Shown one piece after another: positions 5,785-27,802 of a DNA stretch of 64,000 nucleotides; position 1 is the first letter of the stretch; the number at the start of each line of letters is the position of its first letter. Source of the stretch: an uncultured Allomuricauda sp. (lineage in GTDB: Bacteria > Bacteroidota > Bacteroidia > Flavobacteriales > Flavobacteriaceae). Below the pieces are notes generated by a model. It saw only the letters and a program-made list of their open reading frames with translations. It searched no databases and was not told where the DNA came from. Where the stretch lies: the NCBI RefSeq assembly GCF_947499695.1, contig NZ_CANMPQ010000001.1:682001-746000 (forward strand). The letters run 5' to 3'. Position numbers and translations under genes: made by a program.

Positions 5785-6228
5785 TCAATTTTTATCCTCC
5801 CTTTTTTTAAATTCCCAAAATACATTGATGATTGCCCAATTTTCATTTAGTTTGACCAAATGAATGTATTCGGTCCATCTCGCCTTTGGATATCCGGTTC
5901 TTAGACTTGCGCTTGCCATATTTCCATAAACAGAAATATTTTCCACCATATTGTATTGATGTTTTACCGCAAATTTGGGTTTAGTTAACATAAGTTCTTT
6001 TAATTTCTCTGGAGGGAAATCATCACTTATCGTACCGTCAGGATTCAGTCCCCTCTTCGCAAGTCTAGGGTGTAATGATTCATTCATTGTTTCATAATTG
6101 TTCTCAAAGAAATTTTCAATATAATTTAGAATCGTTTTTTCTATTGCACTAGCTTCAGTTGATTTCAGTTGAGCATTAGAGTGAAGTATAGATACCGATA
6201 CTATAATAATGGTAATAATTTTTTTCAT
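5785..6228 (-). CDS. Secreted lumazine-binding/NTF2-like protein
   Basis: The protein has 147 residues and begins with a signal peptide (MKKIITIIIVSVSILHSNAQ). The mature part (IEKTILNYIENFFENNYETMNESLHPRLAKRGLNPDG, then a beta sheet ending in VKLNENWAIINVFWEF) matches the putative lumazine-binding branch of the NTF2-like superfamily common in Bacteroidota. These small alpha+beta cone proteins are poorly characterised, and ligand binding rather than catalysis is usually assumed. It is transcribed towards paralogue A (convergent) and lies beyond the end of the susCD operon on the same strand, about 160 bp away. Confidence 0.78.
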   Translation of the reverse strand: MKKIITIIIVSVSILHSNAQLKSTEASAIEKTILNYIENFFENNYETMNESLHPRLAKRGLNPDGTISDDFPPEKLKELMLTKPKFAVKHQYNMVENISVYGNMASASLRTGYPKARWTEYIHLVKLNENWAIINVFWEFKKREDKN

Positions 6229-6390
6229 GTTTTTTATTCAAATATCCTCGCTTTGTGTATTTAATTTAAGCCAACATCAATTATTAAAGAGTTTAACATT
6301 TGTTGGGGGTTTCCAGACAAAAGGGACATCATATAGATGCCCCTTTAACTTTTCCAAGGCTTGTGTGAAAGCCATGTATTCTCTGAAATA

Positions 6391-7293
6391 CTAGTTACAG
6401 ATGTTCAAAACAATCTCACCAGGAGCTGGGCCAGGGCCATCGGCCGCAGCAGTTTCACCTGTTGGAGCTTCCAACTCATAAGAATGCTCACCCTCAAAGT
6501 TTCCTGGGGTATACGTCCATACCAATTCAGTGGTACCTCCAGGTACGGTGATCACCTCAGTGTTAGTAGTCGCTTGCGCGGTAGAAACAGTGTAATCTGT
6601 ATTGGTACCATCGATGGTCACCGTGATAAAGGCACCGTCCCATCCATCACCAAAACTATCATCCATGGTCAATGTATAATCACCGGTTACTGGTGATGTT
6701 GGGATACAATTGATACCGGCCCTATAGGCATATGGTGAGGAGAAGAACGATCCACCGGATACTCTTCCTTCTGTATCAGTGTCGGTAAAAGATCTTCCAT
6801 CGGTAAGGTTTACCACCAATCGGATATTGATCTGGTCACCACCGGTCACATTGGCCGGGGTGTTTGCAACACCAAGTGCCGAAAGCGCATCGCCCAGGGA
6901 TACCGAGAAGCTAGTCCTTGGCAGCCCATTTGGCCCAGAAGTGAATTCTGAGGCCGCAACAGTGCTCACAAGGGTCTCCGTTGCAGCAGTGGTACCGTTG
7001 GAATCTGTGTTGTCAACGAAACCTACATAGATCTCGATGTTCGACAATAGGTCCCCGTCCTCATGGTCCTGCTCCTCGATGGTCACACCGAAGATCGATG
7101 CGGGATCGAAAACGTTGAATGTGGTGCTCTCAAAGGATACCGTCCTTAGGACAGCTCCTCTAGAAACTGTTTCCTGGACCTCTAAGGTAATCTTGTCGTC
7201 CTCACTACACGAAGCCACAAGTGCCACAAGTGCCACAAGTGCCAGAGCTATATATAATCTTAAATTTTTCATGTATTCTAATTTTGTTTTCAT
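6391..7293 (-). CDS. SusCD-associated surface lipoprotein (SusE position)
   Basis: This is the third gene of the susC-susD operon, starting 10 nt after the susD stop. Two starts are possible: 7293 (300 residues) or 7272, which gives MKNLRLY and places the lipobox cysteine at residue 22, a more usual signal length. The hydrophobic core of the signal peptide is encoded by three perfect copies of a 9-bp repeat. The mature protein is acidic, has beta-sandwich-like segments, and near its C-terminal third carries the DSFGDGWDG motif found in Bacteroidota surface proteins. Proteins in this position usually bind the substrate at the cell surface next to SusD. No catalytic motif is seen and the substrate is unknown. 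Confidence 0.78.
   Translation of the reverse strand: MKTKLEYMKNLRLYIALALVALVALVASCSEDDKITLEVQETVSRGAVLRTVSFESTTFNVFDPASIFGVTIEEQDHEDGDLLSNIEIYVGFVDNTDSNGTTAATETLVSTVAASEFTSGPNGLPRTSFSVSLGDALSALGVANTPANVTGGDQINIRLVVNLTDGRSFTDTDTEGRVSGGSFFSSPYAYRAGINCIPTSPVTGDYTLTMDDSFGDGWDGAFITVTIDGTNTDYTVSTAQATTNTEVITVPGGTTELVWTYTPGNFEGEHSYELEAPTGETAAADGPGPAPGEIVLNICN
7214..7240. repeat. 9-bp tandem repeat (3 copies) in lipoprotein signal peptide
   Basis: Three perfect copies of GCCACAAGT lie at 7214-7222, 7223-7231 and 7232-7240, followed by a degenerate fourth unit. On the coding (minus) strand they encode repeated Ala-Leu-Val in the hydrophobic core of the signal peptide just before the lipobox. The unit length keeps the frame, so gain or loss of a copy would lengthen or shorten the hydrophobic core by three residues. 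Confidence 0.9.
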
Positions 7294-7303
7294 TGCACTT
7301 TTA

Positions 7304-9013
7304 TTAATTGGCCGCAGGAACCCCAGCTGTATCCCAGAATACAGGCTGTTGCTGATCTGATTTCTGGCTGATGCTCGAGTTGTTGTTCACCGAGTTTGTC
7401 GGATAGTACATAGATCGAACGAAAACATCCGGGTTCGGCTCAAGGTTCGGCTGTAGTGTCGTCGGGAACCCAGTCCTTCTATAGAAGTTGTAAGGATCTA
7501 CCCCGTTACCGAAGCTTGCGATCCATAACTGCTCTGCAATGATGTTTGCTTGACCGTCCGCATCGGCGGCGTCCCAAGCGGCATCGACCGCATCCCTGTA
7601 AGCAGTGATGTCAGCTGCCGATGGCTCGAAAGAAGCATCCGCACCCGCCAATCTTGTAGATGAGAAAGCCTGTACCTTGGCAACTGACTTGTCAAGTGCT
7701 GAAAGCACGGCAGCTTTTGCACCTGGGGCATCTCCTGATACGAAGGCCATCTCTGCAATCATGAAATCGGCACCGAAAGCGGTCAACAGGTTGGTTATAC
7801 CAAGACCTGCGGCTCCGGCCACCAATCCAATTGCCTTAAAGGTATCATCATCGAACTTACCACCTACAGGATACGTACCATAAACAGTTCTAAGAAGGCC
7901 ATCCGGCGGAATACCTTCATTATTACCGTGGTCACGCCCCCAATATCCATTGGGAAGGTTACAGAAGGTAAAGCCTCCGTCCAAGTAGTGCTGCGGAGCT
8001 GTTTGTAAAGAACAGACCAAAGTTACTTCATCTGGAGGAGTAGTTCCTGAACCAGGTACCGTGGCATTCTGTCTGTAGAAATAGTAACGCATCCTTGGAT
8101 CGTCAGAGGTGTCCATAAGGTTCATCAACCAGTTGGACATATAATCACCACCTCCTGAAGCAGTATAGTTGATCCCATAACGTGGATGTCTGTTATCAGG
8201 TTGTGAAGCACTGGTAGCGCCCCAATTGAATACCATATCATCTGCTGTATCAACTATATAGTTTCCGCCTGTGACGATAGCGTTGAAACTTGCCAAGGCG
8301 CTTCCATCGACCAACCTTCTCTGAAGGTAGATCTTCATTTTAAGGGTATTGCACGCTCTGATCCACTGATCCTCATCGCCACCATAATAGAAATCCGTCG
8401 GTGGCTTGGCTGCAGGGTCAGTTCCAAAATTGGCGATCGCCTGGTCCAACAGTACAAGAGCTGCATCATAGATGGATGCCCCTGGATCCGCTGCAGGGTT
8501 GAAGTTGTCGTCCGCTATTGCGGCCTCCGTGTAGGGAACGTCCCCGAAGAAGTCCACCATGGTCACAAAAAGGTATGCCTCTATGAACTGTCCTATCGCG
8601 ATATGGTGCGTAAGACCTGCTTCCGTTGCCAAAGGCTCCATGGTCCGGATATTGGCCAATAACCTGTAGGCATTGTCCCATTCATCCGACATGTCACTTC
8701 CCTGGTATACGCTGGCATAGTTCCTACCGTTCATGTTCACGATACGTGTAAGCTCCATTCCTAGCTCGTTGAAACCGTCACCAGTGGTGTTACCACCCGA
8801 TGCCCAGTTATCACCGGGGTCGTTGTCCGCATCCCCTTCAAATTGTCTCACGAAATCCTCCTGGATCGAGTTCAAAAGGAAATCGGGAGAAGATTGCTCC
8901 GGGGTCAAGAAGTTGGGGTTCGCAGTAAGATCCAACTCCGTGGTCTCACAGGAAACCAACACTAACGCCATTGCGCAAAATGCTGTAAATATGTTTTTAC
9001 TTATTCTTTTCAT
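7304..9013 (-). CDS. susD: SusD/RagB family nutrient-binding outer-membrane lipoprotein
   Basis: The protein has 569 residues with a lipobox ending at C22 (VLVSC). The region after it (FLTPEQSSPDFLLNSIQEDFVRQFEGDADNDPGDNW) and the helical TPR-like core (AYRLLANIRTMEPLATEAGLTHHIAIGQFIEAYLFVTMVDFFGDVPYTEA) are diagnostic of SusD/RagB, the lid protein that captures ligand over the SusC transporter. It ends with the usual family C-terminal region (YYPTNSVNNNSSISQKSDQQQPVFWDT). It lies 20 bp downstream of susC. No glycosidase or sulfatase is linked to the operon, so the ligand (glycan or peptide) cannot be assigned. Confidence 0.95.
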   Translation of the reverse strand: MKRISKNIFTAFCAMALVLVSCETTELDLTANPNFLTPEQSSPDFLLNSIQEDFVRQFEGDADNDPGDNWASGGNTTGDGFNELGMELTRIVNMNGRNYASVYQGSDMSDEWDNAYRLLANIRTMEPLATEAGLTHHIAIGQFIEAYLFVTMVDFFGDVPYTEAAIADDNFNPAADPGASIYDAALVLLDQAIANFGTDPAAKPPTDFYYGGDEDQWIRACNTLKMKIYLQRRLVDGSALASFNAIVTGGNYIVDTADDMVFNWGATSASQPDNRHPRYGINYTASGGGDYMSNWLMNLMDTSDDPRMRYYFYRQNATVPGSGTTPPDEVTLVCSLQTAPQHYLDGGFTFCNLPNGYWGRDHGNNEGIPPDGLLRTVYGTYPVGGKFDDDTFKAIGLVAGAAGLGITNLLTAFGADFMIAEMAFVSGDAPGAKAAVLSALDKSVAKVQAFSSTRLAGADASFEPSAADITAYRDAVDAAWDAADADGQANIIAEQLWIASFGNGVDPYNFYRRTGFPTTLQPNLEPNPDVFVRSMYYPTNSVNNNSSISQKSDQQQPVFWDTAGVPAAN

Positions 9014-9033
9014 TATCTTTTAATTTTTTGTTC

Positions 9034-12000
9034 TTAGAATGTTGCCTTTACACTAAGACCATATCTTCTTGCACTAGGTCCGTTGATGAAATCAAAACCA
9101 GCTCCGTTGGATACACCCAGACCGGCCGTGTTGGGGTCGAAGTTTGCACCTTTCGGGGTATTGATGGCCCTGAAGTATAGGTTGTTACCTGAAACGGTAA
9201 AGGTCAAGTTTCCAAATGGGGTCTTGTCCAAGAACTTCTTTGGAAGCGCATAGCTCAACGAGGCCTCCTGTAACCTTACGGTCGTGGCATCGTATACCTG
9301 TAGTTCACTTGGTCCGAAAAGGATGTTGCCAAACCAGAAGGTTGAGTTAACTATTTGTCTTTTGTTTGGATTTCCGTTGGCATCAACACCTGGCAGGATA
9401 TAAGTATCTTCTCTATCTACAGTCTCCGTAATCAATCCCCTACCCATAAGAGTGGAAATTGTACTGGAGTAAACGTCCCCACCCTGTGTATAGTTCCACT
9501 GGAAACCAAGGGTAAAGTTCTTGTAGGAGATACTGTTCCTTACGTTGGCCACCCAGTCCGGGTTTGGATCTCCGATGATACCATCGTTCGGGTCCTGTAC
9601 GTAGTTACCATCGGCCCCCACTACAAAGTCCCCGTTGGCATCCCTTAGGATACGGGTACTGAAGAACACGCCCAAGGGCTCTCCCTCAATTGCTGCATTA
9701 CCAAGGTTAGAGAAACCAGAATAAACAACCTGGTCGGTATCGACACCAAGGTCAAGTACCGTGGTCTCATAAGCGGTAAAGTTAAGGTTGGTCTTCCAGC
9801 TGAAGTCACCTTCCTCTTTGCCCCTGAACCAGTTGATCCCAAGGTCTGCTTCGACACCTTCCGACTGGATCTCACCGATGTTCACAGCTACCCTTCTTGT
9901 TCCAAGGTCGGCAGCAGGATCCAATGGCCTGTCAAGGATAAGGTCGTTGGTGTTCCTTTGATATACAGAAGCATCCAAGGTGATGCGTCCGTCCCACCAG
10001 CGGGATTCGATACCAATCTCTATCTCTTCCAAGGTCTCTGGCTTAAGTGCAGGGTTACCTGTTCTTGTACCCACTTCGTTGGTCACGATGTTCGCTCCCG
10101 ATCCGTCCTGTACATCCTGTGTGTCAAGGATAAGTGTACTTGCGATAGGATAGTTGGACGACTCAAAGTTCGCCGATACCCCTAGACCAGCACGGATCTT
10201 AAGGTAGTTGAGCACATTCTCCGACTTTAGGCCATCGATGGCAGCGGTCGGTATAAAGGACACACTGGCAGATGGGTAGAACTGGCTCCTGTTCTCTTGG
10301 GAGAAGTTGGACACCCAGTCGTTACGTCCGGCCAAGGTCACATATACCCAGCTGTCATAGTCAAAATCGACCTGACCGTAAAGACCTACGAGGTTTCTTT
10401 CAACAAAAAGTTGGATCTCGTTCTGGTTAAGGTAATTGAAGTGTCTGAGCACGTCGAACACCTGCTGGCCGTCACTGGCCACACCGTTCTGGTCAAAGAT
10501 CTCACGTCTTGAAGTGGCACCTACGTTGAAGGTGGTCCCGATCTTATCGGTAATGTCATAGTCACCGTTCAAAAGGAAGTTGTGGTCCCAGATGGTGTTG
10601 GTGTTGTTCCAGGTCTCATAGAAACCGCTCACCGTTCTGGCGCCACCACCGATACCACCCTTGTTCTGGTAGTTGGTGTTGTTCTCGCTATAGATATCGA
10701 TACCCGCCCTGTAGACAAGGTTAAGGTTATCGTTGATGTCATACATGATGGATGCCTGTCCAAAGACCCTGTTGGTCTCCTGGAAGGAAGCCGCGTTGTT
10801 CACCGTCCACAATGGATGCTGGATGGAGTTGTTCTGTCTGTAATAGACACTGCTTCCATCGATAGGGTTCTGGAATGGGAGTCCGGCAACATCAACACTC
10901 CTTGGTGTGAACCAAAGGTGGCCGAAGACGGAGGAACCTGTACCTGTTGAACCGTTACCCTGGCTGAGTGCCACCGGTGGAGATGTGAACTTGGTCCTTG
11001 CATAGTTCAATGTACCTGTTGCGGAGAACTTGTTGCTCAATTGCGCCCTACCACCTACTGAAAGGGTGTTACGCGTAACACTGTTGTTCGGTGTGAAACC
11101 ATTGTCCTTAAGGTAACCGTAGTTCACGTTGTACCCTATCTTGCCATCATCGGAGGCTCCCCTTACGTTGACAGAGGTGTTGGCCACTGTCCCCGTTTTA
11201 AAGAAACTTCCAACACTGTCATAAGGTCTCCAGTCATAGCGCTGACCCTGAAACTCTGGGAAGGCCGCCTGTATAGCTGCGGTTGATGTGGAATATGGGT
11301 GGGCAAGGGTACCATTGTCATCAATGGCAGCTTGGTTTCCCCATCCTGCTGCTCCCTCTCTCCTGAAGCTTGGGCCCCAGTTGGAGAAGAACCATCCGAA
11401 GTTTTGGTCAAATCCGTTACCATATTCGTTCTGGTAATCCGGAAGTGATGCTATCTCGTTGAAGAAAATGGAGGAGTTTACCGTTATCTCGGTCTTCTTT
11501 GGACCGGCAGCGCTTGACGAACCACCCTTGGTGGTGATAAGGATCACACCGTTACGTCCCTGTGAACCATAAAGTGTGGCGGCCGCAAGACCCCTAAGCA
11601 CGTTCACGCTCTCGATACTGTTCGGGTCAAGGTCAAGGAACCTGCTCGAACCGTTGTTACCGTTGACGAAATCCTGACGGTCACCCTGTCTACCCTGTGA
11701 GTTGGTGTCCGTACTGAAAGGTACACCGTCCACGATGAACAGCGCCTGGTTACTGGAGCTGAAGGTGGATAGACCACGGATTATAATGTTTGTTCCCGAT
11801 CCGGAAAGTCCACTCTGGTTTGTTATCTGTACCCCGGCGGCCTTTCCCTGGAGCACCCTGGCAACATCGCCATCGGGCCTTTGCTCTAGGTCCTCGCTAC
11901 CAACCTCGGTAACCGCATAACCCAATGCTTGTTTCTCTCTCTTGATACCAAGGGCCGTTACCACAACTTCCTCAAGGGCCTGGGTATCGTCCTGCATCTG

Positions 12001-22788: not shown

Positions 22789-23409
22789 ATGAACGTCCGT
22801 CTTACCAAGGAACAGAAAATTAAGGTCTTAAATTCTGTTGATATCTACTTTGTAATGCAGCAGATATTGCTGCGCGAAAACAAGATCCGCCGCAACCAAG
22901 AACATTTTTGGGTGGTGGGGCTCGATACCAAGAATAAGGTGCTTTTTATAGAACTTATTGGCCTTGGTGCGGTAAACCGGGTAAATGCCGACCCGCCAGA
23001 TGTATTCCGTATGGCCATTTACAAACTGGCCGTAAAGGTGATCTTGGTGCACAACCACCCCAGTGGCTCGGTAGATGCCTCTAAAGGAGACCATGAGTTT
23101 ACCGACCGTATGCTAAAGGTGGGCAAGCTGATCAATATTGAAGTGGTGGACCACCTGATCATTACCGAGGACGGCTATACCAGCTTTGCCGACAAGGGGA
23201 TCATGGACGAACTACGAAAGTCTGGCCTGTTTGAGATCATGGGCCCCGAAAAAAAGGAGCTGGAACAATGGAAGATCGATACCGAAAAGAAAAAGGCCAA
23301 GAAGGAAGGGTTAAAGGAGGTTGCCAAATCCTTAAAAGCTAGCGGTATGTCTGATGCTGAAATTAAAAAGCATACGGGGTTGAGTGAGGCTGCGGTGAGG
23401 AGGTTGTAG
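22789..23409 (+). CDS. Stand-alone RadC-like JAB (MPN+) domain protein
   Basis: The protein has 206 residues. The JAMM metal site is complete: H88-x-H90-P-S-G-x4-S98-x-x-D101 (HNHPSG...SKGD). The N-terminal helix-hairpin-helix domain of RadC is absent. The C-terminus is a lysine-rich helix followed by a small HTH-like tail (LKASGMSDAEIKKHTGLSEAAVRRL) resembling the C-terminal tails of Rpn/PD-(D/E)XK transposase-like nucleases (from memory). RadC-type JAB proteins are common in mobile and defence regions, but this one shares the composition of its host neighbour rather than of the AT-rich cassette that follows. Its substrate is unknown. Confidence 0.85.
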   Translation: MNVRLTKEQKIKVLNSVDIYFVMQQILLRENKIRRNQEHFWVVGLDTKNKVLFIELIGLGAVNRVNADPPDVFRMAIYKLAVKVILVHNHPSGSVDASKGDHEFTDRMLKVGKLINIEVVDHLIITEDGYTSFADKGIMDELRKSGLFEIMGPEKKELEQWKIDTEKKKAKKEGLKEVAKSLKASGMSDAEIKKHTGLSEAAVRRL

Positions 23410-23465
23410 AGTTGAAATTTTTCACATAGTAAATAGGATGTAACCCGGTTTCTGAATATCTATTT

Positions 23466-24191
23466 TTAAACACTGTGTTGCAATTCAATTTCAGGCATCT
23501 CATCATAAGTTCGTCCGTTCAGTTCTCTACCATTTTTCTTTTTGTTCTTTCCTCCCCATTGTTTGAAGAAAAATGCTACCTCAGCGCTTTCACATTGCTC
23601 TTGAATATCAATAACCCAATCTGCATCCATAGGTCGAGGATTATGACCACTCTCGCCGCCAACTATCACCCAATCAATCTTATCTAAATTTAAATTTTTT
23701 AGAGGCCCAATTAACGGCTCAAGAGATAGAAATTTTACTCTTGCATTAGTATCTCTTAAAAAGTCAATCCTCTTTTCTACTTTTTGTTCTTCAACCGATA
23801 CGCCCATCCAAATATTGTGTGACCATTTTAATTCTTCGTGCAATTCGTATAGTCTTTCTGCTCTTTTGGTCAAGACTTGAAAAACATGTTGCGGGTTATC
23901 ATTCATAACCTTAAAAACCTTTTTAATGAATTCCAAAGGAATTTCTTCATGGAATAAGTCGCTCATAGAGTTTACAAAAACAACTTTTGACTTTTTCCAG
24001 GTGTAAGGTACCTTTAAAGCAGATTCATGTGTGCGAACTTTGAAATTATCTTTATACTTTTCAACTCCCATTGCTTGAAGTCTTTTAGACATTATTTCAG
24101 CATAGCAAAATTTACAACCTTGTGATATTTTTGTACAGCCGGTTGTCGGATTCCAAGTCATTTCTGTCCATTCTATACTCGATTGTGCCAT
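23466..24191 (-). CDS. Three-Cys-motif protein, phage Gp37/Gp68 family (DUF5131)
   Basis: I chose the start at 24191 (MAQSSIEWTEMTWNPTTGC, 241 residues) because it follows the tcmP stop by one base and matches the conserved WTxxTWNPxxGC beginning of the family. An upstream in-frame ATG at 24254 would overlap tcmP by 62 bp. The three cysteines are C19-x6-C26-x2-C29-Y, resembling a radical SAM iron-sulfur cluster motif with wider spacing. Other family landmarks are present: VFVNSMSDLFHE, QVLTKRAERL, IWMGVSVEEQ, FLSLEPLIGP, DWVIVGGESG and FFFKQWGG. The function is unknown; in many genomes it neighbours TcmP, as here. Confidence 0.9.
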   Translation of the reverse strand: MAQSSIEWTEMTWNPTTGCTKISQGCKFCYAEIMSKRLQAMGVEKYKDNFKVRTHESALKVPYTWKKSKVVFVNSMSDLFHEEIPLEFIKKVFKVMNDNPQHVFQVLTKRAERLYELHEELKWSHNIWMGVSVEEQKVEKRIDFLRDTNARVKFLSLEPLIGPLKNLNLDKIDWVIVGGESGHNPRPMDADWVIDIQEQCESAEVAFFFKQWGGKNKKKNGRELNGRTYDEMPEIELQHSV

Positions 24192-24192
24192 C

Positions 24193-25314
24193 TTAATTGA
24201 ATTTAATTTTTGCTGTATAAGTAATTCTTTTTGTTGGATTTCCCTTTTTATCAAATAAAGTAATTTTATTGTTGCTTATAAGAATCTCAATTGCATCTTT
24301 ATAATTCTGTTTTACATAGTTCGTACTATAGTTGTGTTCTCTATATATTTCTTCAATAGTTTTATGATTAAAATCTGTATGCTTTTTCAAAATAATTTTG
24401 CTCAATTTTTTAACTGAATAAACACACAAGGAAGGAAAAAACAGTGGGTCTTGTTTTAGATTTGCCCCAAATAAGGGAACCCCATCTTCCTGCGTGTCAC
24501 TGTATTTAGTCATTATTTCTTTTGCTCGAGTAATGGCAATATGAACTTTAGAAATAAAGAACAAATAATGACTTGTCTGATTTCTGTTTGGGAAGTTCAC
24601 TCTAAATTTCAAGATGAAATAACCCCTATCTTCAAAAATCTTTTGAAATGTTTTTATAATAAAATCCTCTCTTTGATGAGGTCTTTCCTCTTTTTTATAG
24701 AATTCCAGAATTTTATGGTAATAAGAAGCAAAAATACCTTGCATATTCTGCTTTACTTTTTTATTTCTAATTGCAGCTCGAATCCTATTGAAGTTGAACA
24801 GCATAAACAAATCAGAACCCCAATTTTTGACAGAATACAAAAGCATATTCTGAGTATAATTGTAACCAAGTGGGTCTATAAAAGTTAAACTTGGATTTGA
24901 AGATTGTAAATATTCTTCGAGCATTTTTTGACTCGCTGGCTCATTAGCAATTACTGGCTTATTTGTAATGTCATTATAATATGTAAGGTTCTCAATATTT
25001 CTTTTTAAGTCATTAGCTAATTTTTCACTTTTATCATTAAAAAAGGTTTTAACTGCTTTATCAAAATCGATAAACTGACCTTTACTTTGGTTTATACTGT
25101 TTAAAATTTTAATTGGTGTGGAAGGTTTTCCATCATCGTATAATCCTGGACCAGAGAATAAATCAACATATAAAAGGGTGTTAATTTTTCGATATTGTTG
25201 CCCTTTAAGAAGAATAGCGGCCCAAGCTTTGAAATATTCATTAAGTATTTCGGATTTGATTTCAGAAGCAGATCGCTTTTCTTTGAAAAAATCGGATAAG
25301 TTTATCCCCGGCAT
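24193..25314 (-). CDS. tcmP: Three-Cys-motif partner protein TcmP
   Basis: The protein has 373 residues. The N-terminal Rossmann-like part has YVDLFSGPGLYDDG (motif I-like, D51) and LTFIDPLGYNY (residues 144-152, motif IV-like), a pattern reminiscent of SAM-dependent methyltransferases. The C-terminal 80 residues look like a winged-helix domain (IEEIYREHNYSTNYVKQNYKDAIEILISNNKITLFDKKGNPTKRIT). This matches the TcmP family, defined by its regular pairing with the three-Cys Gp37/Gp68-like protein encoded one base downstream. Biochemical role is unknown. Very AT-rich, unlike the upstream JAB and phosphoesterase genes. Confidence 0.88.
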   Translation of the reverse strand: MPGINLSDFFKEKRSASEIKSEILNEYFKAWAAILLKGQQYRKINTLLYVDLFSGPGLYDDGKPSTPIKILNSINQSKGQFIDFDKAVKTFFNDKSEKLANDLKRNIENLTYYNDITNKPVIANEPASQKMLEEYLQSSNPSLTFIDPLGYNYTQNMLLYSVKNWGSDLFMLFNFNRIRAAIRNKKVKQNMQGIFASYYHKILEFYKKEERPHQREDFIIKTFQKIFEDRGYFILKFRVNFPNRNQTSHYLFFISKVHIAITRAKEIMTKYSDTQEDGVPLFGANLKQDPLFFPSLCVYSVKKLSKIILKKHTDFNHKTIEEIYREHNYSTNYVKQNYKDAIEILISNNKITLFDKKGNPTKRITYTAKIKFN

Positions 25315-25328
25315 AAATTATTGTTTTT

Positions 25329-25352
25329 CAGTGTAGTGACAACAGTGTAGTG
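25329..25352. repeat. Direct repeat CAGTGTAGTG x2 between cassette genes 1 and 2
   Basis: Two perfect copies of CAGTGTAGTG lie at 25329-25338 and 25343-25352, 14 bp apart start to start. They are in the 52-bp gap between the HExxH gene stop and the tcmP start, about 15 bp upstream of the tcmP start codon. They could be a regulator site or a slippage product. Confidence 0.75.
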
Positions 25353-25366
25353 CGCATTTAGCAAGG

Positions 25367-26692
25367 CTATATTCCACAAATCTCATTAAAACCATCTATT
25401 CTTTGTTCACAATATGTATATAGCCTGAACCATTCTTCTCTAGATATATCTTCTTGCCTAATCACTTTGTCTCTAATCGGCCTTAGCTCCAAATCTTCAT
25501 AATCAAATAAGGTGGATGCAAATATCAAATAAGGTCTGTCTCTTACAAATTCCGACAAATCTATAGAAGGCTTTTGTTGTCCTAATCCCGTTGTTTCTCG
25601 AAATTGGTTTCCGAAAAAAATTCTATCAATAATCTGACGATTGAAACTATTCTTTTCAATTAAAATCTCCTCATCAAACTTTGAGATTTCTTCTAAAATT
25701 ATACCCTCTATGGTTTCTTCATCTGGCAGATTTGACGCAGTGAGTATTTTCTTTACATCTATTTCATGGCCATCAATTTTTCCATAGGTTTCACTATAGT
25801 TTGTTAAGAGAAGGTAGAATAAAAACCCTCGGTCGTTATTTCTTAATAAATTGTTTGAATTCTTCACCCAAATTTCACTGGCTTTAAACTCTTTAGGAAT
25901 CAAAACATCATTAAAAAGAGAATTAGGAATATTTAATGCAATTTTTGCAAATACAGATGAAACTTTATATCCTAAAATAGGGTCCTTTATCTTTAGATAA
26001 ACAGAGGTAAGATGAACTGCTGCAGAATATAGTGTCAGTTCAGGATGATATAGTTTTTTTTCAATTTTAGAAGAAAGAGCTTCTCCTTGAGTTTCTTTAT
26101 GAGGTGATTTTAATTTTAATGCTTCATTGAGTAAAAAATTATACTCTGCATAAGTTGCAGTTGTTTCTAAAAGAGAAGCAACGCTTAATGGAACCCTGCT
26201 AATTTTTCTTCCATCACTTGAGCTAAAAGTCACGAAAGGAATGGGCTTGTCTTCACTTACATTTCCATTAAAATCAAACCTAAGGCCTACCGTAATCTGA
26301 AACTTCCATCTATCAGCATAACTCCCTTCAATTAAGTTATATTGTTCTGTATAATATTCTAAATAATAATCTCTTTGAAGGGTTAGAATTAAGTCTCGGT
26401 AGTAATGGAAATCATACTCATTTCCTAAAATTGCAGCATTAAATGCCCTAAAAATTCTGAAGATATTTAATATTCCCCAATAAGTACTTACTTGGTCTAT
26501 ATAGTGCTGGTTTTCGTGTACATATGTACTAAATCTGTTTTTCTCTGTACTAGGATTTGTAACAGCCTTTTTGAATTCGGCTTCATCTTCAAATTCATTA
26601 AGCTGAATGTAATTTCCAAGACAATGATAATATCCGAGCGTGTCTACGTTTGGGAATTTTTTCCAACTTTTTATTTCTTCCTGAAATTTCAT
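25367..26692 (-). CDS. Uncharacterised HExxH (zincin-like) protein of the TcmP cassette
   Basis: The protein has 441 residues and no signal peptide or clear membrane segments. It contains STYVH59ENQH63YIDQ, a classic HExxH zinc-binding helix, and later SLLE176TTATYAE183Y, which could supply the third ligand, as in gluzincin-like enzymes. The rest is mostly helical and unlike anything I recognise. It is the first gene of the AT-rich cassette, 52 bp before tcmP and on the same strand. A soluble intracellular metalloprotease-like enzyme paired with TcmP and the three-Cys protein is the best description. A peptidase function is inference from the motif. Confidence 0.75.
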   Translation of the reverse strand: MKFQEEIKSWKKFPNVDTLGYYHCLGNYIQLNEFEDEAEFKKAVTNPSTEKNRFSTYVHENQHYIDQVSTYWGILNIFRIFRAFNAAILGNEYDFHYYRDLILTLQRDYYLEYYTEQYNLIEGSYADRWKFQITVGLRFDFNGNVSEDKPIPFVTFSSSDGRKISRVPLSVASLLETTATYAEYNFLLNEALKLKSPHKETQGEALSSKIEKKLYHPELTLYSAAVHLTSVYLKIKDPILGYKVSSVFAKIALNIPNSLFNDVLIPKEFKASEIWVKNSNNLLRNNDRGFLFYLLLTNYSETYGKIDGHEIDVKKILTASNLPDEETIEGIILEEISKFDEEILIEKNSFNRQIIDRIFFGNQFRETTGLGQQKPSIDLSEFVRDRPYLIFASTLFDYEDLELRPIRDKVIRQEDISREEWFRLYTYCEQRIDGFNEICGI

Positions 26693-26738
26693 TTCAATTT
26701 TCTGTAGCTGTCTTAATGTGCAAGTTTAATCACTTTAC

Positions 26739-26761
26739 CCAACCAATCTGGAGATTGTTGG
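26739..26761. repeat. Hairpin-forming inverted repeat upstream of the HExxH/TcmP cassette
   Basis: CCAACCAATC (26739-26748) and GATTGTTGG (26753-26761) pair over nine bases with a single bulge and a 4-nt loop. It lies about 47 bp upstream of the first cassette gene and about 105 bp downstream of the panE-like stop. There is no T-run, so an operator or leader structure is as likely as a terminator. Confidence 0.4.
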
Positions 26762-26866
26762 AATTCTTATCCTTTTAATCTACATGTGGGGGAATACAAA
26801 TCCCATTTAGGTTTGAGATAGCTGTACTAATATACCTAAATAATTAATACCTTTTTTTCCTACTTT

Positions 26867-27802
26867 TTAAGAAATACGTTTTTGTATTTCCCCAAACAAT
26901 TGTCGGTAAGTTGGAGCATCAACACTAAAGTGTTGTGCTACACTTACTACATAGCCTACTAAAGCCTGAACTTCGGTATTGGTTTTTTTGGCGGTAACAT
27001 CAGAATGTAGTGAAGAGGTTGCCGTATTGGGTAGACTTTTCAGTTTGGCTACTACCTGTTCGGCCATATTGTTGGAGATGGCAATACCTTTTTGGTTTGC
27101 AATTTGGGAAACTTCGTTGACCAGGGCAATCACGGTATTTCGCTTTTCCAAATCGGTAACTATGGGACCTACAGATGTATCAAAATATGTAGTGGCCGTA
27201 GCCATTACCGAGATAAAGACAAACTTTTCCCAGATCACCTTTTCAATCTGTGGGGTCAAGGTCACCTCTACCCCAGCTTCTTGGAGCAACTTTTCCAAGA
27301 CCTCCAATCGGGCATCGGAACGGCCTTCTACACCAAAAAACAGTTTTTTTATGTTGCCCAGGTTCTCCACCACTCCAGGTCGAGATAGTCGTGCAATAAT
27401 GTACACGCAACCATCGCACACCAAGTTGTTGGGCAGCAGTTTTTGGACGCGTTCCCTACAGTCCACCCCATTGAGCAAGGGCAAGATCACTGTTTGCGGG
27501 CCAATACAGGGTGCAAGTTGCCGTATGGTCTGCTCCAGATCATAACTTTTGGTGCAAACTATAATATAATCGACCTTGCCAATATCATCAGGATTATCTG
27601 TTGAAGACTTTGGAGCAGCCACAAACTCTTCATCACCTTCAATAACCTTTAGTCCTAACTTCTGAATTTGTTCTAGATGCGCCCCTCGAGCCAGAAAATG
27701 AACTTCTAAAGCTTTGCTGTCCTCAAATTGTTTGGCGAGCAAGCCTCCAAAAAAGCCTCCCACCCCTCCTATTCCAGCAACCAAGATTTTTGTTATGCTC
27801 AC
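26867..27802 (-). CDS. panE: 2-dehydropantoate 2-reductase (ketopantoate reductase family)
   Basis: The protein has 311 residues and starts with GTG at 27802. The N-terminal Rossmann motif GIGGVGGFFGG binds NADPH. DYIIVCTKSYDLEQTI, ILPLLNGVDCRERVQ, and the C-terminal helical domain with EKVIWEKFVFISVMATATT are typical of ApbA/PanE. The catalytic lysine is likely within IEKVIWEKF. The enzyme reduces 2-dehydropantoate to pantoate in pantothenate/CoA synthesis, although many Bacteroidota paralogues act on other 2-oxoacids. It starts 2 nt after the stop of a small upstream gene, so the two are co-translated. Confidence 0.85.
   Translation of the reverse strand: MSITKILVAGIGGVGGFFGGLLAKQFEDSKALEVHFLARGAHLEQIQKLGLKVIEGDEEFVAAPKSSTDNPDDIGKVDYIIVCTKSYDLEQTIRQLAPCIGPQTVILPLLNGVDCRERVQKLLPNNLVCDGCVYIIARLSRPGVVENLGNIKKLFFGVEGRSDARLEVLEKLLQEAGVEVTLTPQIEKVIWEKFVFISVMATATTYFDTSVGPIVTDLEKRNTVIALVNEVSQIANQKGIAISNNMAEQVVAKLKSLPNTATSSLHSDVTAKKTNTEVQALVGYVVSVAQHFSVDAPTYRQLFGEIQKRIS

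Follow-up and report, generated by a model that had tools for sequence, protein, structure and literature searches.

The closest described systems are PDC-M30 and PDC-M41, two candidates catalogued in PADLOC in which the first component matches TcmP and the second matches the three-Cys protein DUF5131. In the accessible parts of one report, PDC-M30 is described as a catalogued candidate that was found by "guilt-by-embedding" and that was carried by 32 of 100 P. aeruginosa strains, with phage resistance in 68.8% of them (PMC10855318). According to an excerpt of a second report, most such candidates in the core defensome described there await validation (PMC12988326). Excerpts of two others list the TcmP gene SMa2243 beside hna (SMa2245) among upregulated genes in Sinorhizobium (PMC12445080) and describe modules embedded in type I restriction-modification, with DarTG2 (PMC12255303). 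The literature searched, which lay mostly outside subscription journals and wholly outside preprints, yielded no mechanism for either TcmP or DUF5131. Here, as in that literature, phage defense by the pair is an inference.

Results

Layout and acquisition of the cassette

We analyzed a 64,000-nucleotide stretch of DNA from an uncultured Allomuricauda sp., referred to here as the window. The list of open reading frames (ORFs) contains three consecutive minus-strand ORFs, of which the first two lie at 25367-26692 and 24193-25314 and the third, taken by its first start codon, at 23466-24254. In the DNA itself, the TcmP stop codon is followed by one base and then an ATG at 24191, which matches the family-conserved N terminus of DUF5131 so that the third gene spans 23466-24191 and encodes 241 amino acids (Table 1). 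These data uphold a first-pass annotation that described a minus-strand trio of an HExxH protein, TcmP, and a three-Cys protein, with a single base between the last two genes and HENQH at residues 59 to 63 of the 441-amino-acid product of the first. Also in agreement with its description of an AT-rich cassette unlike its neighbors, G+C content was 31.7% in the HExxH gene, 29.2% in tcmP, and 35.5% in the DUF5131 gene versus 47.0% in the flanking RadC gene, 44.3% in the ketopantoate-reductase-like gene, and 38.9% in the whole window. Elsewhere in the window, G+C content rises to 0.44 to 0.52 over positions 6001 to 12000 relative to 0.389 overall, suggesting another acquired or differently selected stretch.

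Table 1. Positions of the cassette genes, their motifs, and the flanking genes in the window
Feature	Position	Strand	Evidence or remark
HExxH (zincin-like) protein, 441 aa	25367..26692	-	Lone single-gene passenger outside the pair; without Pfam, NCBIfam, or PADLOC family
HENQH motif, residues 59-63 of HExxH protein	26504..26518	-	HExxH kept in 11/11 members
TcmP, 373 aa; methyltransferase fold like that of RlmJ, wHTH at C terminus	24193..25314	-	TIGR04474, PADLOC PDC-M30A; predicted model and fold comparison
TcmP SAM-binding-like motif D51-L-F-S-G-P-G57	25144..25164	-	D51, G55, and G57 invariant in 22/22 aligned
TcmP motif D147-P-L-G150, at RlmJ DPPY position	24865..24876	-	D147 invariant in 22/22 and 30/30; aligned with RlmJ DPP
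GMT-like wHTH domain of TcmP, residues 318-358	24241..24363	-	PF22560, 31.2 bits, above cutoff
DUF5131 (three-Cys, Gp37/Gp68-like), 241 aa, predicted radical-SAM-related	23466..24191	-	PF07505, PDC-M30B, PDC-M41B; radical SAM bridge protein
C19-x6-C26-x2-C29 motif of DUF5131	24105..24137	-	Invariant in 25/25
Accessory block extent	23410..26892	.	blastn: without homology to the G021 stretch (L017) between RadC and the ketopantoate-reductase-like gene
Flanking RadC-like gene, outside module	22789..23409	+	PF04002
Flanking ketopantoate-reductase-like gene, outside module	26867..27802	-	PF02558/PF08546

Among 59 relatives searched, the HExxH gene was present only in the genome of the window itself; the other 58 include 35 of the same genus. 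Queried with the window TcmP, the other genomes of the genus yielded just two matches, both weak and partial. The ketopantoate-reductase-like flank is present in 4 of the 59 relatives. In G021, whose arrangement comes closest to that of the window, RadC and the reductase enclose other genes, which encode an HTH protein that weakly matches M78 peptidases and a 166-residue protein, indicating a site with alternative cargoes. RadC was not found beside the reductase in the other two genomes carrying this flank. No exact direct repeat longer than 8 bases connects the two border stretches, so we do not claim an attachment site. These findings support the cassette as an acquired accessory block, as the first-pass annotation had suspected. 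The G021 cargo (L017:5561-7263), with HELHH in its Peptidase_M78-like protein, is another zincin-motif accessory cargo, and RadC of G021 (L017:4850-5469) is divided between two ORFs that overlap and looks broken.

Independence of the HExxH gene

The HExxH protein had no match to Pfam models above their cutoffs or, at E ≤ 1, to those of NCBIfam or PADLOC. An exact-peptide scan, tblastn on plasmids, and viral-contig searches, which may miss more distant relatives, identified 10 homologs in one Psychroflexus genome, six plasmids (from cyanobacteria, rhizobia, bacilli, and Sphingomonas), and three viral contigs, and none in annotated phages. The nearest homolog, from Psychroflexus (L001), is 77% identical, and the DNA common to this locus and the window covers exactly the HExxH gene (25368-26701). 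A second HExxH-containing protein (192 aa, HESIH) is encoded 1.2 kb upstream of the Psychroflexus gene (L001:6232-6810).

TcmP and DUF5131 were absent beside all 10 homologs within the flanks read, which on one side of L006 extended to only 2.3 kb. The TcmP search was performed with one divergent query, which recovered 7 of 40 known TcmP proteins, and was repeated at nine of these loci with a 74-sequence profile that recovered all 40. Reciprocally, the HExxH gene was found at none of the 40 other TcmP loci read with flanks, and an HExxH profile matched 1 of 392 genomes versus 55 for TcmP. We did not detect a shared third partner in an all-against-all blastp comparison of ORFs of at least 100 amino acids from nine HExxH loci, with the tenth (L196) outside the comparison; the only cross-locus matches were the HExxH proteins themselves. 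A PADLOC scan of 76 neighbors gave single hits only (DarT and DarG, AbiJ, NERD+UvrD, PDC-M11, and others), and Pfam likewise gave single hits plus two transposases and two integrases.

The first-pass annotation had proposed the zincin as a third partner of TcmP and the three-Cys protein, with co-occurrence set beforehand as the test on which a three-gene module would fall, and all 10 homologs lacked tcmP within the flanks read. A three-gene defense module in which the zincin takes part would account for the common strand, the 52-base gap, and the similarly low G+C content in the window. However, this reading is highly improbable, and we rejected it on the basis of 0 of 10 HExxH relatives with TcmP or DUF5131, 0 of 40 TcmP loci with the HExxH gene, an HExxH gene in only 1 of 392 genomes, and a closest homolog with only that gene in common. 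The cassette is best explained as two independent acquired units side by side, a TcmP-DUF5131 pair and a lone HExxH gene, and the latter, a zincin-like gene, lands in varied mobile and defense neighborhoods.

HExxH is kept in all 11 family members seen, window included; such conservation, like that of the three cysteines in 25 of 25 aligned DUF5131 proteins, shows that these motifs did not arise by chance. In the first eight members, E176, E183, and H227 do not vary either and could provide a third ligand, which makes a metal site plausible. A structure model built from four sequences had a mean pLDDT of 40.9 and was too poor for a fold search or a test of the zincin fold. One guess is that the protein would cleave a protein during infection. 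Sequence searches found no convincing solved relatives of the HExxH protein, TcmP, or DUF5131, whether alone or as profiles.

TcmP and DUF5131 as a genomic pair

Across 392 Bacteroidota genomes, DUF5131 lies within 2 kb of 50 of the 58 TcmP places, and at least one of the eight without it (in G097) is near a contig end. Both proteins are encoded in 48 of these genomes versus 11.2 expected by chance. From the opposite direction, TcmP adjoins 48 of 67 strong bacterial DUF5131 genes, and the other 19 had no TcmP neighbor with a wider profile either. The genomic pairing of the two proteins is strong, as the first-pass annotation had stated for TcmP and the three-Cys protein, and they are catalogued in PADLOC as a defense candidate. 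Among the best 80 of at least 595 DUF5131 matches in viral contigs, 42 were accompanied by TcmP, which lay upstream in 14, downstream on the same strand in 8, and in convergent orientation in 20. Of the 61 loci with 1.6 kb or more of sequence to each side, 27 were without it. These solitary bacterial and viral genes indicate that DUF5131 has some role alone. Such solitary genes, common among these viral contigs (L092-L171), could be anti-defense genes.

The window TcmP matched TIGR04474 with 119.1 bits (cutoff, 53) and PDC-M30A with 57.5 bits, and its predicted model has an RlmJ-like fold by fold comparison. The catalytic motif of adenine-N6 methyltransferases is [DNS]PP[YFW]. This motif is absent from the window TcmP, which has DPLG in its place within a family of DPxG or DQxG proteins, so that methylation is not assured. 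With 373 amino acids and a wHTH, the window TcmP belongs to a long class, and a 285-amino-acid protein (L070) exemplifies a short class.

The window DUF5131 matched PF07505 with 337 bits and, almost equally, PDC-M30B (440 bits) and PDC-M41B (444.5 bits). The usual cluster motif of radical SAM enzymes is CxxxCxxC, of which variants exist. DUF5131 proteins have instead Cx6CxxC, the cluster motif that the first-pass annotation had read, in 25 of 25 aligned sequences. PF04055 did not match the window protein at E ≤ 1, and TIGR04471 (radical SAM mobile pair protein A) reached 86.4 bits, below its cutoff of 355. A bridge protein of the TIGR04471 kind (L172) matched both PF07505 (2.8e-33) and PF04055 (7.5e-8) above their cutoffs, a link to the window protein that is indirect. 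Through this bridge, DUF5131 is predicted to be related to radical SAM enzymes.

Exchange of the TcmP partner

Comparison of the window with G238 (L070) revealed DUF5131 proteins 89% identical beside TcmPs that are 21% identical and of different class (373 versus 285 amino acids). We read 40 of the 58 TcmP places with flanks. In 33 pairs, which included the window and were drawn from 35 loci without L053 and L054 (reverse order) and L086 (broken TcmP), identity of DUF5131 did not correlate significantly with that of TcmP (Spearman 0.07, P = 0.10). DUF5131 proteins at 92 to 93% identity occurred beside TcmPs without a blastp match to each other. Divergence of TcmP within a class is moderate (for example, 86% and 73% identity), and thus unrelated TcmPs beside 92% identical DUF5131 proteins reflect replacement rather than fast drift. 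In eight comparisons that were cross-class or distant, DNA homology broke off between 0 and 13 bases upstream of the start of the DUF5131 gene, and in two same-class controls it continued through tcmP.

On a quick tree of 78 DUF5131 proteins, made without bootstrap, the partner changed between long and short class at least 22 times, 9 of which were forced by well-supported (starred) branches; L086 carried no class in this count, and L053 and L054 were called short from their PADLOC match. Shuffled class labels gave a mean of 25.7 changes, with 40 of 500 shuffles as low as the observed number, which is therefore close to random. PDC-M41A corresponded to short and PDC-M30A to long TcmP in all 10 proteins scanned. 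DUF5131 is highly conserved and partner-agnostic, and TcmP has been repeatedly replaced at the same place by a TcmP of different architecture. This exchange is new to us.

Exchange was also observed within hsd operons. Between L062 and L076, HsdR (95%), HsdM (97%), and DUF5131 (92%) are conserved beside HsdS at 51% identity and TcmPs without a blastp match, and between L063 and L064, HsdR is 80%, DUF5131 93%, and HsdS 49% identical, again with unmatched TcmPs. The exchanged block in these operons also holds ABC-3C parts, Fic, PIN, and, judged by eye, RelE-like genes, so TcmP is not replaced alone; a TcmP was always put back. In three hsd loci, direct repeats of 63 to 116 bases (85 to 92%) join the hsdR 3' end to a stretch upstream of tcmP (L062:5785-5899/8980-9094, L071:5911-5973/8362-8424, and L076:3895-4010/4853-4968) and give the appearance that insertion of accessory blocks there was accompanied by a duplication.

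One alternative is that TcmP is a harmful modifier of nucleic acid (e.g., RNA) released upon infection and that DUF5131 is an enzymatic antidote preventing or reversing the lesion, with solitary phage DUF5131 serving in anti-defense. This possibility, which we consider rather unlikely, would fit the asymmetry between TcmP, with DUF5131 at 50 of 58 places, and DUF5131, without TcmP in 19 of 67 bacterial cases and, among the best 80 of at least 595 viral matches, in 27 of 61. It would also fit the exchange, since an antidote acting on a lesion need not coevolve with TcmP. However, 8 of 58 TcmP places are without DUF5131 (at least the one in G097 near a contig end), and a radical-SAM-type antidote would be unusual.

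Genomic setting of the pair

Type I or related restriction genes surround 13 of 35 TcmP-DUF5131 loci, five of which match by construction because the eight Hsd queries were drawn from them. A Pfam check on a set of 26 proteins verified the hsd domains. The sole background for this frequency is a genome-wide count of HsdM_N, with 169 matches in 118 genomes, averaging 1.4 copies per genome. No hsd genes lie beside the window locus.

DUF5131 is also frequent on mobile elements, with 159 of 50,697 phage records, at least 595 viral-contig stretches, and 410 of 72,556 plasmid records, and PHROGs places it in families of unknown function. This distribution would suit nucleic-acid modification genes of phage or plasmid origin that are retained for a function other than host defense, such as shielding the DNA of a mobile element. 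We consider this reading unlikely to explain the pair, as 13 of 35 chromosomal or contig loci lie among restriction genes, with the background of HsdM_N noted above.

Discussion

We tentatively favor a reading in which the TcmP-DUF5131 pair would be an anti-phage, restriction-like nucleic-acid-modification system, acquired beside an independent HExxH unit; we regard this as quite possible, short of probable. In its favor are the strong pairing, the partner exchange, the RlmJ-like fold, the radical SAM link, and a defense context, with restriction genes around 13 of 35 loci and a listing in PADLOC. DUF5131 would be the constant, radical-SAM-related enzyme, whereas TcmP, which has an RlmJ-like domain for SAM binding and, in long-class members, also a winged helix, would serve as the exchangeable component, recognizing the target and making the first modification on it. 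By analogy to RlmJ, we guess this target to be RNA. Since the TcmPs that partner DUF5131 have little sequence in common, the two proteins are probably coupled by way of a shared substrate or a small conserved patch, and probably not through a coevolving interface. Counting against this reading are the lack of restriction genes at the window locus, the absence of [DNS]PP[YFW] from TcmP, the Cx6CxxC motif of DUF5131 with no PF04055 match, and solitary DUF5131 genes in 19 of 67 bacterial cases and 27 of 61 viral cases (the latter among the best 80 of at least 595).

A bolder and more doubtful proposal is that the pair represents a new restriction-like immune type, with a constant radical-SAM-type enzyme and a swappable RlmJ-like specificity or effector subunit. 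Swaps would leave a clean junction at the start codon of DUF5131 and go along with changes of HsdS, the specificity subunit of the host type I restriction operon. If so, a cell could change its immune specificity without changing the enzyme. The exchange points to which gene is constant (DUF5131) and which varies (TcmP), and it merges two PADLOC candidates, PDC-M30 and PDC-M41, into one. With the zincin out of the picture, a three-part mechanism need not be sought, and the interesting part is the exchangeable partner, which is directly testable in a pair that reaches 48 of 392 Bacteroidota genomes, with DUF5131 also on many plasmids and phages.

The individual proteins resemble known enzymes with clear differences. 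The predicted model of the window TcmP has its fold in common with RlmJ, the 23S rRNA A2030 N6-methyltransferase, but TcmP lacks the DPPY motif, is 14 to 15% identical, has an extra C-terminal wHTH, and is mobile in distribution. DUF5131 is linked to radical SAM enzymes and TIGR04471 through L172, but its cysteines are spaced x6-x2 instead of x3-x2.

Relative to PDC-M30, both components are present on adjacent window genes, with TcmP as a distant member (M30A, 57.5 bits; M30B, 440 bits), and our analysis contributes the fold, describes the partner exchange, and equates the candidate with PDC-M41. The window DUF5131 also matches PDC-M41B (444.5 bits), but its TcmP is of the long class with a wHTH, in contrast to the short TcmP that is PDC-M41A. 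Finally, TcmP-DUF5131 occurs among hsd genes like other modules embedded in type I restriction-modification loci, and TcmP varies there beside HsdS while the other subunits are kept, but neither TcmP nor DUF5131 is itself an hsd gene, and the window copy stands outside such loci.
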